Source: Marvania coccoides
Taxonomy: Eukaryota; Chlorophyta; Trebouxiophyceae; Chlorellales; Chlorellaceae
NCBI GenBank assembly: GCA_963854735.1
Contig: OY978103.1
Span: 372,001-436,000 of the forward strand
DNA length: 64,000 nucleotides
Direction: 5' to 3'
Shown one piece after another: positions 18,801 through 29,536 of the stretch. The notes below the pieces were generated by a model. It ran no database searches, had not been told where the DNA came from, and saw nothing but the letters and a program-made list of their open reading frames with translations. Within the stretch, counting starts at the first letter, position 1, and every line of letters begins with the position of its first letter. The position numbers were made by a program, and so were the translations under genes.

Positions 18801-21454
18801 AGCGGAGCGCTGGGCTCTGTACCACGAAGTACACATGGTGGAAAGGGCAGTACGACGAATGACGGGCGCAGGTGGGCCACTACTGACTAATTTTAACCGT
18901 CTTCGTCTGATTCTCCATTTTTGGGGGTTCAAAAAACTGTTTAAAATGCATTTTGGGGAGGAATTTTAGAGCATATCAAAATTTGCAAAATTTTTAAATA
19001 ATATTCGCTTCCTATTTTTTAGGTGCGCCTGGGCCTCACCCGCTGGTTCTCCACATGGCGTGGGCCGTGCCGCAGCTCCTCCGCCTGGTCTCATGTCTCA
19101 ACGCCATTCACACTCCCGCGGGCAAAGCTGCGCTGGGAGCGGCATCCGCAGCAGTAGAAATGGCGCCCCAGGAGCGCGCGCTGTACCTGTGGCGCGGTCT
19201 GCCTGGGCGCAAGGCAGTCGTGGGCGCAGGAGCGGACTCAGATTCTGGCGATTACTCCTCAGTCGGCGGAAGGACCGTGTCCAGTCTTCGAGCGTGGCTG
19301 CGGCACCTGCGGGAGTTTACATTCCATACTCTGGGCATGCTGCCCGTCCAGGTGCCTGGCACTCTGGATATCCCGGGGCTGGCAGCTGCGTTTGCGCCAG
19401 CAGTTCTCGGGTGCGGTTAATTTTGCTTAATTTTCTACTGATATAGAATAAATGAATCAATAACGAATGCATGTTTTTTTAACGTGTATTTTCTTCCTAT
19501 TCTTCATTCTCCTCATGACCTAATCTCTCGCGTTACTGTTTTCGTCTTTTCTCGCAGGTACATCGATGCGCTGGAGCACCAGCACGCGCGCCTGGTGCTG
19601 CGTCACGTCACCATTCCCTTTGTCAAGTCCACCCCAGCCCCCAAGCTGGCGGAGTGGGTGCTGCCACAGCTGGCGCTGCTGATGCCGCACATGCAGGCAA
19701 GTTTTGGTTTTTGATAAGTAATTCATAAAGAAAGAGCCGTTATTGTATATAGAATGCCTTCAGTTAAAAGCAGGATTTACTCCTATTTATTCTCGATGAT
19801 GCTTTTGTTTTAATTAATGAATTTTAGTTACCAGCTAGAATTATGAATACAAATTTACTGAGAGAATGAAATTTGAGTACTCTGTCCATTCCGTTGCTCT
19901 TCAAATTTAATTCGTTACGTTTTTTTCATTTGAAGCTCTCTTAAACATCAATTAACATTCCATCCTAATGGCGCCTTACTCTCTGTCTTTTGCAGGTGTG
20001 TTTTGGTCTACTTGGTCTGCTTAGACTTCATATTTTGCGGATTTATGGCTGCTTGTTCCCTTCAATCTGAGATTTTCAATGGGAGCGGTTCCAATATTCC
20101 CCTTTCTGTTATTCTCGATGATGTTATCAAATTTTGTTTCCTATTAGCATGACAACACAAATAAACATGAATACAACCGTGAATACTGAGAGAATAACAG
20201 TACATGTTCTTGCTTTTGCTCTTTAATGTCAAGGTTAGTGCTTTAAGGCCCTCTCGCAACCCATTCTAACAATCTCCCCGCCCCATCTTCGTTCCTTTTT
20301 GTAGGTGAGCAACTCTTTCTACTAGAGTATCGGCTCATTTTTGAAGCAAGCGGCGTTCTGTCATTCTCGATGATGTTATCAAATTTTGTTTCCTATTAGC
20401 ATGATAATATTGTATGAATAAAACCGTGAATACTGAGAGAATGTGGGAACGCTGCTTTTTTGCCTTTTTTCTTGAATCTCGACGCCTCTTTCTGCACTCT
20501 CTGCGACACCTCTCACAGTTATACATCATCAACCCTACAATAATTTCTCGCCTCCTTTTCCTCCGGCATCCTTCTTTCTCCCCGCAGGTGCGGCTCGCAG
20601 CGGCATGGGAAGGCATGCTGAGCGGCCCCGCCGCCACCCCCACCACCGTCCCCACCACCGAGGGCTCCGAGGCTGCCAACGAAGAGATCATCCGCGAGCG
20701 CATGATGCGAGAGCTCACCCAAGAGTACGCCATGCTGCTATCGCATGTGGCAGAACGCATCCTGGAAGACCCCCACGCCGCCGCCCCAGCCGAAGGCACC
20801 CTGCTCCTGCAAGCCCCCGGCGTGGGGAAGCAAGCCAAGCCCACGGGGCCCACGCTGCTGCAGCTGCTGCTGGAGCGGGAGCCCACTGCCGGGATCGCTG
20901 CCGCCGCTGCAGCCGTGCAAGGGATGCAGCTCCCCGACGAAGCCGCGTTCCGGTTTGCCATGTTCTGCCGCGCGCTGGCCGCGCTGGCCCCTGCGGACGC
21001 GCAGCTGTACGCGTACGTCGGCTCTGAAGTACTGAAGGCGGCGATCACCAGTCTGGCGTCAGAATTGATGTCTACGCACACCGCTGACATTCTGGGGTTG
21101 ATTCGCAACGTCCTGCTGCAGCAGATCTCCGATCCGGGGTCTGCAGTGCATGGTGTGCTGCGATCTTTGCCTGGGGTCACGGCCGAGCGTGAAAAAGTGC
21201 TGTTCTCGGCATTCAAACGCACGGGGTCGGAGAAGGAGCAGCGCAATGCGGTGAAAAAGTTCCTGGTGCAGGCGTGCGGGGCGGGGAGCTTCGCAGCGTT
21301 GGCGGATTGGCGGGCGCCGGCTGCGGTACCGGTGGCGGCGATTACTTCCAGAAGGACGGGCGCTAGGGTGGCGAATGCGGCGCAGCTGGCGCCTGGAGAT
21401 GCGCATGCGGATGAAAAGCTGCAAGGGGACATTACTCGGGCGCTGTTTGAGTGA
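15892..21454 (+). CDS. XPO5: Exportin-5 / HASTY nuclear export receptor
   Basis: Eight exons: 15892-15987, 16068-16919, 17125-17868, 18067-18259, 18473-18871, 19023-19410, 19558-19696 and 20588-21454. Phases agree and give 1225 residues, close to plant HASTY. The start matches the importin-beta N-terminal fold. QLMGYAVLQHLVGNRWEDF, the nearby RSKAALLLALAIKR and the VQAALDLAQAVVEWAP segment follow the HASTY/exportin-5 pattern of HEAT repeats. With RanGTP, exportin-5 exports small structured RNAs, and HASTY acts in the plant microRNA pathway. Two introns use GC donors: CAG|GCAAGC after exon 1 and CAG|GCAAGT after exon 7. The last intron (892 nt) holds an internal three-copy repeat. Ala-rich and Pro-rich loops near residues 370-390 are insertions relative to the family. 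Confidence 0.88.
19789..20442 (+). repeat. Three-copy ~80 bp direct repeat within an intron
   Basis: Copies begin with ATTCTCGATGATG and end with TACTGAGAGAAT, at about 19789-19868, 20111-20196 and 20363-20442. The last two share about 40 identical bases at their start and a similar end. The first is more diverged. All lie in the last intron of the exportin-5 gene. Confidence 0.8.
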
Positions 21455-22135: not shown

Positions 22136-25100
22136 ATGTGGACCGCATGCTTCTTGGGGTTGTTCGCCGCGCTTAGCCTGGTTGCAGCCCAGCCATATGT
22201 AGCACCGCCAACTGAAACAAAATTCGTTTGCAACTGCCCTGGGAAAGAAGCAAAGGCCTACATATGTGGGGTTGATGGAACGGTGAGATATGGATTAAAC
22301 ACAATTGCTATTTTTTCATCCAGCGCTTTTCCATTAGTTCACTTTAAATGATAGTTGTATTGCCGCCTACCCATTCCACCTCTGCAGACGTACGGCAACG
22401 AATGCATTTTGAATTGTATTAATGTGCCAAAGAAGTATGATGGCGCGTGCAAGAGCGACGGGTGCTTTCCTTATGGGAACAGCAGTGAGTAACTCGTTAA
22501 CCTTTTTTTTTGCTCAGCGATGACTTGACCGAACATGTGTTTCTAGCCAGTTTTATGCATTTTGACGCTCCTAGGTTCCCCTATTATTTTACATATCTTT
22601 CCACAGAGTGCGACGGCAATTTTGACGACCATGCTCCCGTCTGTTCCAATGGCATCACTTGGGACGGTGTTGCCGAAGCGCAGTGCTCAGGCACAGCCCT
22701 GACTGCCACCTGCTACTCGGCGGGCGTCTGTCAGCACCGCGCTGACGGCAGGCCTGCATTTTTGCCCACAACAGGCGGGAAAGGGCTGGACGTGAAGATT
22801 GCTGCCAACAGAACGACGCTCCCAGCCAAAACCAACCCGCCTTACAATTATTCTGAGGCGCTGGCCAAACTGCTCCTGTTTTACGACTCCCTCATCAGCG
22901 GTAACATCACAGCTCCTGGGGTTTGCAAGCGCAGGTTGACCTGGCGAGTTCATTTATTTTTCGTTTTTAGTACCTAGCTTTCCCTTGCTGTCTTTCAGAA
23001 TAAATCTTAATATATTACTTCTTTCATCAATATCTTCAGGCGGTCAGACTCGTGCTCGAGCTGCAAGGGCAAATACGGCGAGGATCTCAGCGGCGGGTTT
23101 TTTTCTGGCGGCGGCAGCACCCTCAAATACCCCGCCACAATCTCTGGATTCTCCGCCACGATGCTGGCGTGGGCTGGCATAGAATATGGGGCTGCCGTTG
23201 AGCGTACTGGTTCCCTGGCAGACCTGAAATGGAAGGTCAAATGGGCTGCTGACCACGTTATTGCTGCCCACCCGGAAGAGTTCGTTTTCGTAGGCTTGAT
23301 TGGCAACGGCACCGAAGACGACCATGTATTCTCTCCCGTAGAGTACTATGAGCTCTTCAACCCCTCCCCCCGCATCGTTGGCTACGTCACAGCTGCCAAT
23401 CCTGGGTCGGAGATTGTGGCCGACGCTGCAGCCACCATTGCAGCCGCGGTGGCGCTGCTTGGCGACGAGGCGGATGCGCAGTGGAAGGACAGCGCTTTGA
23501 CGCATGCGAAACAGCTTTACAACTTTGCAAAGACATATCCAGGCAGCTATCGAGACTCCAAAGACCCAGTCATTCAAATGGTGCAGCAGAACTACTTTTC
23601 CAACGGGCAGGTCGCTGACGACCTCGCATGGGCAGCCACCTGGATGTACAAAGCCACCGGTAAGACGAATAATACGAACTGTGCATTTTAATGTGTGTTT
23701 CTTTCTCCCCTCACGTTTTGACGCTCGTTTTTATATTTTGTATCTTGCAGGTGAAGCCGGGTACCTGGCGGACGCCGGCAGCTTCGCAGCCAAAATGCCT
23801 GCTATCAGCGAGGGGGAGACTTTTGAGACAACTGACAAACGAGCAGGGGTCGGCGTGTTGTTGAGCGCCATCACCAAGAACGCCTCTCACTTGGCCATCG
23901 CAAAGACATACTTTGACACTTTTCTTGGAATGAAGGTGGCACACACAAAGGCTGGCGCAGCGTATCCGTAAGTACAATAGTTACAGCTCTTTGATTTTCC
24001 ATTGCTAATGCCTCCCCTTTCCTTTTCATCTTTCCTCTTATATTTGCAGCTACCATTGGGGGGCGAACCGCCACGTCGGCAACCTGGGCTTTCTAACTCT
24101 CGTTCACGCCAAGAATGATGCTGTGGACGCAGCGTATGCGGCTCGCCTCGTCAATTATGGCATGCATCAAACAAACTACTTGCTGTGAGTAAAAGTCTTG
24201 CTTTTTTACTTCAAAGAGTAAAATAAATATAAAATTGTTTTTTTCAATGCAGTGGTGACGCTGGAAGGTCCTGGGTCGTCGGTTTTGGAAAGGACTGGCC
24301 GACTCAAATTTACCACAAGTTCTCCTACAACTCCATCCTCACCTGGAACCCCAACACGACGGCAGAGCCGCTGGGGCAAGACATGTGGATGACGGACGTC
24401 AGAGGCCCTGGCCTCCCCATCAAACTCTCAGGGACTGTTCAAAAAGCGGCTGTCGACTTTGAAGGCAGCCGCCTCCCATACTCCCACGTTCCTTGGGGCA
24501 CTGTGTTTGCTGCGCCACTTTTTGACGACGGCCTTGTCAACAGCCGCCGAGACAGATCATATACCGACCCAACAATCGGTGAGAAGTATTCATTTTTTCA
24601 AAAGCATAAATTTCATCAAAATATTCAATTAATTACGCATATCTTTCATTGTATTATACCTCTACGTATCTAAAGATTTTTTTGTGCTTCTCTGCAGAGT
24701 ATAATGCAGGGGCGGTGGGCGCGATTGCAGCGCTCGCTGACTGGTATTCCACCGCAGCCTACGCTGGCGTTGAGTCCCTGGACGGCGTAATCCCCTTCAC
24801 CTGCGACCAGCCCGTGACCCCCTTCACAACTACATCAGTCGCACCCTATCCACCTCCATCGCCTGGCGGAGATGATGACGACGATGATGACGATATCGAT
24901 GATAACCCTGCGAATGGCCTAGAAACGGCAAATCTGCCAAGCAACGAGGTGGACTCCTCCCCATCAACACCGCCGCCAGAGAAAGAATCATCGGTGCCCA
25001 TGGCTGTGGTTATTGGCGGCGCTGTCGGCGGTGTTATTCTCGTCAGCGCCGTCGCTGTTGGCTTTGTGATGTGGCGCAAGCGCGCTGGCCAGCGGGTCTC

Positions 25101-26845
25101 GCACCAACAGAATATTTCTGGCCCTGAAAATGGAGCCAGCAGCCCCAGAAACTACTGGGGGTGGGTGCGAGAGCCGAAGTTCAACGTCATTGCAGCGGCC
25201 CCTGCCGCCGCCGCTGCGGGAAGGGCGGAGGTCATTGAAGTGGTCTCCGACCCAGATTCTGGCACAGAAACGCAGTCAGTGTCTTCCCTGGCGCTCACCG
25301 CTCCCTCCACCCTTCAAGTGCAGCGGCAGCCACCTGCGTCTCCCTTTGCTGGGGTGGGGCCCTCCGTGCCTGCCACTGCATCTGACGCGTCTTCTTTCGT
25401 CCATTACAGCCATCAAACTGTTGCCAATTTGCGCGCGCAGCAGTACCTGCCTGGTTTGATCGAAGCTGAGCACCTCAATTCCACTTCTCCTCCCGTCCCC
25501 CCGACCCGCCCAGAAGCTTCGCTTGCGCTGTCAACGCTTTCCAGTTTGCAGACCTCCAGAGACCCCGTGCTGCAGTGGATTGCTAGCAATCTGGCAGTGG
25601 ACTCCCTTGACAGCGGCAATATTTCTGACGGTAGTACAACTGATGCCAGCAATGCTGTGCCCAACAGCAAGCAAAACTCTCGCGCCCGCACATCCATACC
25701 CCCTCACCTCGCTTCCCTGGCGTTCAAGTGGGACGACGTGCGCGTGCTGAAGTCGTTGGGCATCGGTTCCTTTGGAAAAGTGTTCCTGTGCGAGCTGCAC
25801 CACGCGCCTGTGGCTGTCAAGCTGCTGGTGGATGCCAAAGCGCTGGCGACCGCCACCGCCGCGGGGCTAGGCAGCGCTGCAACGGCCACCATGGCGTCTG
25901 AAGCCCTTGCTGTGGCTCCAGGCGACAAGCTCCTGGCGGAAGTTTCCATCATGGCCTACCTGCACCATCCAAATGTAGCACACCTTGTCGGTTTTTGCCT
26001 GGTGAGTACTTTTCGAATTTCTTCTTTCTTTCCACATACACATAAAGCTGATTCGATTCTATTCAAATATTGAAATGCCGCAGGAACCTCCAGCGCTTGC
26101 GCTCGAGTACTATGCACGGGGCTCCCTGTTTGATGTCTTGGGCCGTGCCGCTCAGTCTCCAGCGGCTGCAGCAGAGCTCACTTGGGCTCGGCGCATCGGC
26201 ATGGCCGCAGATGCTGCAGCTGGAATGCTGCACCTGCACACCCGCTCACCAGCAATTATCCACCGCGATTTAAAGTCCCCCAATCTGTTGGTTTGCAGCG
26301 ACTATTCGGTGAAAATTGGCGACGTTGGACTCTCAAAATTGTTGGGCGAGGCGTCTCAAAACTCCTCCTCCACAGCCGGCGGCCCATCCAACCCCCGCTG
26401 GCTGGCTCCAGAGGTAATCAACGGCAGCCGGCACACCGCCAAGACCGATGTTTATGCCTTTGGCATCATCATGTAAGGATATATTTTGCAACTTTGTGTT
26501 TGGAAGTTCCCAGACCCATCCCGCCGCCGCATGGTATTTGCTCACTAGCCAAAATTATTTACCAAATTACTGAGAGGCCGCGCTTATTTCTACCACAGGT
26601 GGGAGCTGTTGACCTGGACGCTACCGTGGGAGGACACAACTGTGTGGGGAATTGTGGGGCAGCTGTTGAACGGTGGCCGGCCATCGCTGCCGCCGATTTC
26701 GCAGCTGCCAGGCTTCGGCCCCGAAGGACCGCCCGTTGAAAGCCTAGAGAGATTCATCGCCTTGATGCACCGCTGCTGGGCGCAGAGCTCAGAGGAGCGG
26801 CCAGGCTTTGACAGCATTGCAGCTGAGCTGCGGAGGATGGTTTAG
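22136..26845 (+). CDS. Kazal / GH9-like / TM / TKL kinase receptor
   Basis: Ten exons: 22136-22282, 22388-22484, 22607-22934, 23040-23659, 23751-23967, 24050-24184, 24253-24578, 24698-26001, 26084-26472 and 26599-26845. All phases fit and give 1269 residues. In order: a signal peptide (WTACFLGLFAALSLVAAQ); a Kazal-like Cys domain (CGVDGTTYGNEC, about 30-95) and a second Cys-rich unit; a GH9-family domain (about 170-650; LSGGFF, TMLAWAGIEYG, YHWGANRHVGN, EYNAGAVGAIAALADW); an acidic Pro-rich linker; a transmembrane helix (about 726-749) with RKR after it; and a TKL-type kinase (GIGSFGKV from 978, K998 in VAVK, HRDLKSPN from 1118, WLAPEV). The GH9 catalytic DAGD pair reads SGGG (213-216), and the late Glu position reads Asp (D620). 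The kinase DFG reads DVG (1138-1140), with the Asp kept. I infer a wall- or cellulose-sensing receptor with an inactive hydrolase as ligand binder. Confidence 0.88.
26506..26530 (+). repeat. Dispersed 24-bp repeat in an intron, copy A
   Basis: The core TTCCCAGACCCATCC, followed by GC(C/T)GCCGC, lies in the last intron of the receptor kinase. A second copy lies at 40402-40425 in the intron of the SAP/Rho-N gene, in the same orientation. Confidence 0.65.
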
Positions 26846-27799: not shown

Positions 27800-29536
27800 A
27801 TGATCAGCGAAGACGGCCTAGCGGAAGTGCACCATCATGATGAGGCAACAGCAGCGGCGGCGGCGGGGCCCTCCAACAGGCGGGCCAGCGTGGACTACGG
27901 CTTCGACTCGACAGACCCCAGATTCACCTCGGACGAGTTCAGGATGTACGAGATGAAGGTCAAGCGCTGGTGAGTTAGCACTCTTTCGTTCGTCATACTT
28001 TTCTACCCACGGCTGGATAATTTCCTCCTCCTCTCAACGCTTAGAGCTTTCGCTAACGAGCTTTCACCTTGATGTTCAATGCAGTCCCATATCAAAGAGT
28101 CACGACTGGACCACGTGCATATGGTAAGCGCGACTTAAACAGCTTGTCAGCCCCTTCTCTCTTTTTCAATCAATCAGCGTACTTTTATTTAGCACTCCGC
28201 CTCGTTTTTTACTCATCCGCTTGCTTGGAACTGTTGCAGGGCGCACCCGGGAGAAAAGGCGAAGCGTCGCGACCCTCGGAAGTTCTCCTACAGCGGCACA
28301 GCATGCGTGGAGTATAGGAAGTCTGGCAACTGCGCTCGCGGCGAGGCCTGCACCTTCTCGCATGGCGTGTTCGAGTGCTGGCTGCATCCCAACCGCTACC
28401 GCACGCAGCTTTGCACCGACGGCATGAACTGCCGCCGCCGTGTGTGCTTCTTCGCACACCAGGAGTGCGAATTGCGGCGGCTGCCAGGCGCCGACCCAAA
28501 TTTGCCGCCCGTGGGCGCTGCGCCCTCCGCGCAGCTGCAGGCGGACCTCGCTGCGGAAGCCGCGCTGCTGCAGTCGCAGGCACAGCTGGCGCAGGCGCTG
28601 CACTCCTATCTGGAGCGCTCAAAAGCGAGGCAAGAGGAGGCGGTGACGGCGGCAGCGCAGATGCTGGACCCCCTGGCCAAGCTTCGCCTCCTGCAGACCC
28701 TGCAGCAGCAGCAGGCGGCCGCTGTTTTGGGCGGCGGCGGCGGCAGCGGAGCGGAATCTCTGGATGCCACGCTGCTTGCGGCGCTGCAGGGGTTGTCGGT
28801 GGGCGGCATCGTGCCCCCCGCCGCCCACCCTGCGCCCATGGTCCGCCACAGCATGGACGGTGGCTACTTGCCCCCAGTTTCTGCACCGCTGCCGCCGCCC
28901 TACGGCGGGCCCACCGGCCCAATCTCCCGCCGTTCCGTTGACATCGGCAGCCTCTCAAGGGTGAACCCGATGAGCACCGGCGGGCTCCCCTTCCTGGGGA
29001 CCGTCCCGCACCGCCTGGAAGACCTCCTTCCGGGGGTGGCAATGGCGGCAGGCGGCGGTGGGGGGCACCTTGCTGTGCCTGGCACTCTTTTTGGGCCCCT
29101 CCCCACCTCCAGCTTCTTGAACGTGGGCAGCGGGCTGATGGGAGGGCCCACTACCGGCGCTGGAATGACTGCTGCGGAGGCGTTGGCTACTGTAGCTGAT
29201 AACAACAGTTCCGCCGCAGCAGGAGGAGGAGCGGAGCGCCCCACCCCGCAGCCGAGCCTAGGGCTGGACAGCATCGACGAGCTGGGCCCTGTGGACGAAG
29301 ACAGCAGCAGCGGCAGCTCCGCTTCTGCCGTGGTGCGCAGCGTCAGCGCCGGCAGCAGCCTGGACACCGCCAACGGCAGCGCTAACGGCAAAGACGCGGT
29401 GGTGGCGGCCCCCACTGCCGGCGCGCCTGCAGTGACTGCGTTGCGAGCTATGTCCAACCGTGCAATGTCTTTTGAGAATATTCTCGCGGAGCTGCCACGG
29501 AGCTCCTCGCAGGTTAACATGCTTGGAATTAACTAA
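27800..29536 (+). CDS. Plant-type CCCH tandem zinc-finger protein
   Basis: Three exons: 27800-27969, 28085-28123 and 28240-29536, in phase, giving 501 residues. The sequence [16 protein letters not shown] leads into [20 protein letters not shown], the conserved arginine-rich lead of plant TZF proteins. Two CCCH fingers follow. One is C-x7-C-x5-C-x3-H ([21 protein letters not shown]). The other lies around [16 protein letters not shown]. There are no ankyrin repeats, so it resembles the TZF1-6 group. The C-terminal ~340 residues are low-complexity (Ala, Gly, Pro, Ser), with [21 protein letters not shown] Ser runs. Such proteins bind AU-rich mRNAs and direct decay or storage in P-bodies and stress granules. 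The RNA target is unknown. Confidence 0.9.

Follow-up and report, generated by a model that had tools for sequence, protein, structure and literature searches.

Does a single gene of the green alga Marvania coccoides encode a receptor kinase whose extracellular part is derived from a cellulase-family (GH9) protein, and if so, is that part still an enzyme, and what might it bind? These questions are raised by a locus on contig OY978103.1, which we have analysed within a window of 64,000 nucleotides (positions 372,001 to 436,000). We refer to the gene and its product as RK.

Gene and domain architecture

The ten exons of RK can be spliced into one open frame of 1269 amino acids followed by a stop, with all introns of the GT-AG type, when exon 3 ends at 22934. 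Ending exon 3 at 22943 instead creates a GC-AG intron (donor GCGAGT) and a product of 1272 amino acids, in which the three additional residues restore RLTWRSDSC. From homology to a paralogue, L019, the GC donor at 22943 is probably the one used, the GT donor at 22934 being the less likely alternative; a second paralogue, L017, uses a GC donor too. The reading frame is intact with either end. The start (22136), the end (26845) and the limits of exon 8 (24698-26001) that had been predicted were all confirmed by the splice and frame check. The features are as follows, numbered along the window.

22136..26845, + strand: RK gene, whole coding gene, 10 exons (splice and frame check)
22136-22282, 22388-22484, 22607-22943 (or -22934), 23040-23659, 23751-23967, 24050-24184, 24253-24578, 24698-26001, 26084-26472, 26599-26845, + strand: exons
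22136..22189, + strand: signal peptide, about residues 1-18 (by eye; the window next in hydrophobicity after the TM helix begins at residue 5)
22229..22453, + strand: Kazal-like unit, residues 32-71, split by intron 1 (Pfam Kazal_2 E 1.6e-4, just sub-threshold; rhodniin match)
After the first Kazal-like unit, to about residue 123, + strand: second Cys-rich unit
22843..24750, + strand: GH9-type domain, residues 161-644, exons 3-8
23104..23115, + strand: SGGG, residues 216-219, at the position of the catalytic DAGD (sequence comparison)
24566..24568, + strand: Asp623, at the position of the catalytic acid Glu (sequence comparison)
24850..24993, + strand: linker, proline-rich and acidic (D8) (translation)
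24994..25062, + strand: single transmembrane (TM) helix, about residues 726-748, followed by WRKR (hydropathy)
25561..25587, + strand: juxtamembrane motif DPVLQWIAS, residues 915-923, common to paralogous receptor kinases
25741..26836, + strand: CTR1-like TKL kinase domain, about residues 975-1270, with GIGSFGKV, VAVK, HRDLKSPN, GDVG (DFG position) and APE

Pfam was run on the 1269-amino acid version, whose residue numbering applies. The GH9-type domain proposed for the ectodomain is clearly present, PF00759 matching residues 163-632 over positions 1-443 of the 444 of the profile (236.7 bits, E 8.3e-70); no GH18 profile matched RK at E ≤ 0.001. The kinase profile matches residues 972-1265 (152.5 bits, E 1.7e-44). 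The proposed single TM helix has the highest hydropathy of any 19-residue window (2.47), and the only other strong one, at 1.74, lies at the signal peptide. On the gene model and hydropathy RK is thus predicted to be a single-pass receptor kinase, with a signal peptide, an ectodomain, one TM helix and a cytosolic kinase, and would reside in the membrane.

The Kazal-like Cys units of the original prediction are less clear-cut. The inhibitor rhodniin matches residues 32-112 (E 6.1e-5), and Kazal_1 lies above the cut-off in L017 (30.5 bits) and in two relatives, P0010 and P0013, but the Kazal_2 score of RK itself is borderline (22.1 bits, where the cut-off is 22.8), and P0001 and P0005 fall below the cut-off for Kazal_1. 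A Kazal_1 search of the whole genome gave no match anywhere; the controls were likewise silent, so this search is uninformative.

Upstream of the gene, two copies of a roughly 40-base stretch (TTCTCGATGATGTTATCAAATTTTGTTTCCTATTAGCATGA) lie at about 20112-20152 and 20364-20404, apparently within intron sequence (by eye). Also by eye, the gene that follows downstream, at about 27800-29536, seems to encode a tandem CCCH zinc-finger protein of the plant type. A search against plasmid DNA gave no match.

The ectodomain: relatives, possible ligand and catalytic residues

The 22-Mb genome contains 28 GH9 exon matches, which fall by position into 12 loci. Scanned for the catalytic motif, six of these have DAGD (L010, L012, L014, L015, L016 and L018) and two have DAG at an apparent exon end (L009 and L011). 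The four that lack DAGD are RK, L019, L017 and L013, the last a GH9 gene on the minus strand at C1:1698552-1699899 (DLSGGWLSGMAAGN) in which no Kazal head was noticed. L019 (on C1) and L017 (on C3) have the same Kazal-GH9 layout as RK. L019 continues into a hydrophobic GPI-like tail (by eye) and then a stop, with no kinase, and L017 has neither tail nor kinase; a tblastn search with the RK kinase gave no match within the 9.5 kb of either locus at E 0.01.

Kinase-less Kazal-GH9 homologues were also found in Myrmecia bisecta (P0013) and in transcriptome or metagenome sources (P0001, P0005-P0012). The kinase-less relatives carry EAGG or ESGG at the DAGD position; they retain the Glu of the acid site, and their first base site is likewise occupied by Glu. 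Judged from these sequences, the base Asp had gone before the receptor arose, because kinase-less relatives already have EAGG; the idea that catalysis disappeared only with the receptor was rejected, since the second base Asp is absent from them also. GH9 relatives from Tulasnella, Rhizoctonia and other sources have EAAN at this position. Both EAGG and EAAN proteins still have Glu at the acid site and another close to the base site, and so may be active. In the tree, EAAN proteins (P0015-P0017, P0019-P0021, P0024; Tulasnella, Rhizoctonia and others) adjoin the algal group. A malectin-GH9 protein in EukProt (P0022), with DSSS and a Gln at the acid site, is likely to be another GH9 pseudoenzyme.

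In the GH9 tree, from which P0014, P0017, P0021, P0045 and P0046 are omitted, RK pairs with L019 at a support of 1.000 and L017 joins next at 0.998. Over 668 residues the ectodomains of RK and L019 share 72% identity (dN = 0.20, dS = 1.33); the two rates are pairwise and cover both branches together, and dS is near saturation. The differences between the two ectodomains are mostly silent, which on this pairwise comparison argues that the RK ectodomain has been conserved for some purpose other than catalysis.

What might that use be? The original prediction was that the ectodomain binds cellulose or a related glucan. We compared RK with E4 of T. fusca at 13 non-catalytic residues that we take to be substrate contacts. 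Three are kept (W313, R317 and Y429) and ten changed, although at three of the changed positions (205, 206 and 209) the alignment is unreliable even for canonical enzymes. Cellulose binding is unsupported as it was stated. A glycan, of the cell's own wall or of its neighbours, is our best guess for the ligand. The main rival is a receptor of the same construction whose pseudo-GH9/Kazal ectodomain has a protein or peptide ligand; this could be a GH9 enzyme that is still active, a protein of the wall, or a protease captured by the Kazal head. The altered contacts, many of which are changed in the kinase-less relatives too, and the head of protease-inhibitor type would suit such a ligand; the retained equivalents of W313, R317 and Y429 and the conservation of the barrel as a family speak against it, and we consider a protein ligand rather unlikely.

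The catalytic residues were compared across 65 GH9 sequences (P0063 omitted; P0018 trimmed to its GH9 part, from residue 791). The first base site is D in 43 and E in 21, and S in RK, which alone of the 65 lacks an Asp or Glu there. At the second base site RK has G, where 42 sequences have D, and at the acid site it has D, where 58 have E. Against the two DAGD aspartates and acid Glu that mark an active GH9 enzyme, RK has SGGG and Asp623. Among 113 columns that are invariant in 11 kinase-less relatives, RK alone deviates at six, L019 alone at four and both at 14; the RK-only columns include 215, 216 and 623, at the catalytic motifs, and 288, which aligns with His125 of E4, presumably a substrate contact. 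On the model of a homologue (P0001, 38% identical) the ectodomain would adopt the (alpha/alpha)6 barrel of solved GH9 structures, and this barrel is conserved across the family. By sequence, then, the RK ectodomain belongs to the GH9 fold family and has lost both its base and its acid residues, upholding the claim of a pseudoenzyme; because these residues are lost, it is not expected to hydrolyse glycosides. An enzyme-receptor hybrid, in which Asp623 serves as the acid and some other residue as the base, would draw on the acidic residue still present at the acid site and on the acid Glu and first-site Glu of the kinase-less relatives, but RK has neither base-site carboxylate and stands alone at the first site, which makes such a hybrid very unlikely.

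The kinase module and its join to the ectodomain

The kinase sequence has 401 distinct matches in the PDB; the best 60 are headed by CTR1 (3ppz, E 3.4e-46), and CERK1 is far weaker (3.9e-25). Together with the catalytic motifs, this places the RK kinase in the TKL group as a CTR1-like kinase, as had been predicted. The Lys, HRD, the Asp of DVG (in place of DFG) and APE are present, and from these motifs the kinase is predicted to be active.

The genome contains at least 142 exon matches to related kinases. The motif DP[VL][LM]x[WY][IV]xS precedes the kinase in nine of the 13 kinase loci scanned, RK included; L023 has a variant, DPVLRWIDG, and no such motif was found in L030, L033 or L034. A kinase tree of up to 35 chosen protein matches and 12 loci places RK in a clade with L020-L025, L028 and the RCC1-kinases P0064, P0065, P0066 and P0070 (support 0.993), within which the branching is unresolved (0.08-0.76). 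The sole plant CRK falls outside this clade, in a tree where RLK/Pelle sampling is thin.

Four members of the clade, L022-L025 (on C13, C12 and C3), have extracellular RCC1 repeats (by Pfam on L024, with repeats in the frames of all four) and carry ectodomain, TM helix and kinase in single ORFs, an architecture that we take to resemble plant CRINKLY4. At L035/L020 (C6:771619-774433, exons read by eye) a match to polysaccharide deacetylase (CE4) lies ahead of a TM helix and kinase, all on one strand. This kinase may be a pseudokinase, because it has ERG for DFG and HRDVNTKN for HRDLKSPN. The ectodomain stretches of L021, L027, L028 and L032 gave no Pfam match. CTR1-like kinases with LRR, RCC1, discoidin-like or no named ectodomains are common in Trebouxiophyceae among the best 120 of 691 matches to the kinase module. 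A CTR1-like TM-kinase of Chlorella vulgaris (P0092) is annotated as RNase T2, and a CTR1-like kinase of C. sorokiniana (P0093) as RNase T2 plus purple acid phosphatase; these are possibly further enzyme-derived ectodomains, or gene-model fusions.

The join in RK lies within exon 8, whose 1304 bases are free of stops and encode the end of the GH9 domain, the linker, the TM helix, the juxtamembrane segment and the glycine loop. Frame 0 has the top codon-usage score in all eight windows of 50 codons scored (24700-25899, the last 102 bases of the exon lying outside), weakly so at 25300-25449; the scoring was trained on L019 and on the ORFs of three paralogous receptors, which are related genes and so not independent. 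The single open frame and its coding bias bear out the claim of one gene. That two adjacent genes, for a Kazal-GH9 protein and a receptor-like kinase, have been joined in error is extremely improbable, for although L019 has its own stop after the exon homologous to that of RK, such a misreading or misassembly was rejected on the open exon, its in-frame bias, the single-ORF architecture of L022-L025 and the quality of the HiFi assembly (QV 66.5; PMC11833223). Judged by the homology of both halves and their common frame, RK combines a Kazal-GH9 ectodomain with the module of a receptor-kinase family.

A candidate wall sensor and its known counterparts

On balance we favour the view that RK is a catalytically dead, glycan-binding, wall-sensing receptor kinase derived from a Kazal-GH9 protein. 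By homology, its ectodomain comes from a family of secreted proteins, some of which may be GPI-anchored, and was placed on the TM-juxtamembrane-kinase module of algal receptor kinases. A glycan of the alga's wall or of its neighbours would most likely be bound in the former substrate groove or on a surface newly formed there, and clustering or displacement driven by this ligand would lead the CTR1-like kinase to phosphorylate a partner or itself. The likeliest task would be sensing the state of the wall in growth or budding.

A former wall enzyme thus seems to have become a cell-surface sensor. Successive stages of a pseudoenzyme can be seen within one 22-Mb genome, from DAGD GH9 proteins through kinase-less ones with EAGG and the acid Glu to the receptor with SGGG and Asp. 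For a unicellular green alga, RK is a candidate wall or glycan sensor that probably falls outside the receptor families of land plants, and it offers a testable example of a receptor ectodomain arising from a wall enzyme. More tentatively, it could belong to a chlorellalean class of wall-sensing receptors, apart from land-plant RLK/Pelle, in which secreted wall-enzyme folds (pseudo-GH9, and the CE4 of C6:771619-774433) were grafted onto one CTR1-like TM-kinase module and enzymes became glycan sensors, here through loss of catalysis. The genome speaks against a broad set of enzyme-derived ectodomains, with two cases so far (GH9 and CE4): whole-genome searches gave two exon matches to GH18 and three to GH16, none adjoining a kinase in receptor orientation when coordinates were compared by eye. 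Malectin had no match in the genome at E ≤ 0.001.

We know of no earlier case of a GH9 ectodomain with a Kazal head on a TKL module. No other GH9-kinase protein appeared in searches giving 4 and 60 matches or among the best 120 of 691 kinase-module matches, each search scoring about 8000 word-sharing candidates with length limits, such that some fusions may be missed. No GH9 receptor kinase is described in the titles and abstracts searched, a literature largely outside subscription papers and preprints, and a passage of PMC5977491 mentions neither kinase nor Kazal. The original prediction that no GH9 receptor kinase is known holds to this extent, but receptor kinases with other glycoside-hydrolase ectodomains have a precedent in GH18/CHRK1, as PMC5485988 describes. 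There, 91 sequences of plant GH18 receptor kinases are reported, with ectodomains predicted to be enzymatically active (PMC5485988).

Like RK, the GH18 receptor kinases, such as tobacco CHRK1, join a glycoside-hydrolase-type ectodomain to an intracellular kinase, but the ectodomain is GH18 rather than GH9 and the Kazal head is absent. CHRK1 presumably lacks the catalytic Glu, and its kinase is of the RLK/Pelle family, whereas that of RK is CTR1-like. KORRIGAN-type class A plant GH9 proteins share membrane anchorage of a GH9 domain with RK, but are active enzymes, anchored N-terminally and without a kinase. The Kazal-GH9 proteins (L019, L017, P0013, P0001 and P0005-P0012) have the Cys-rich head and a GH9 domain without DAGD, and differ from RK in having no TM-kinase and in keeping the acid Glu and the first-base-site Glu. 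The RCC1 receptor kinases (P0065 of Nannochloris 'desiccata' and L022-L025) have the same TM helix, juxtamembrane motif and CTR1-like kinase as RK, and carry an RCC1 propeller in place of its Kazal-GH9 ectodomain.
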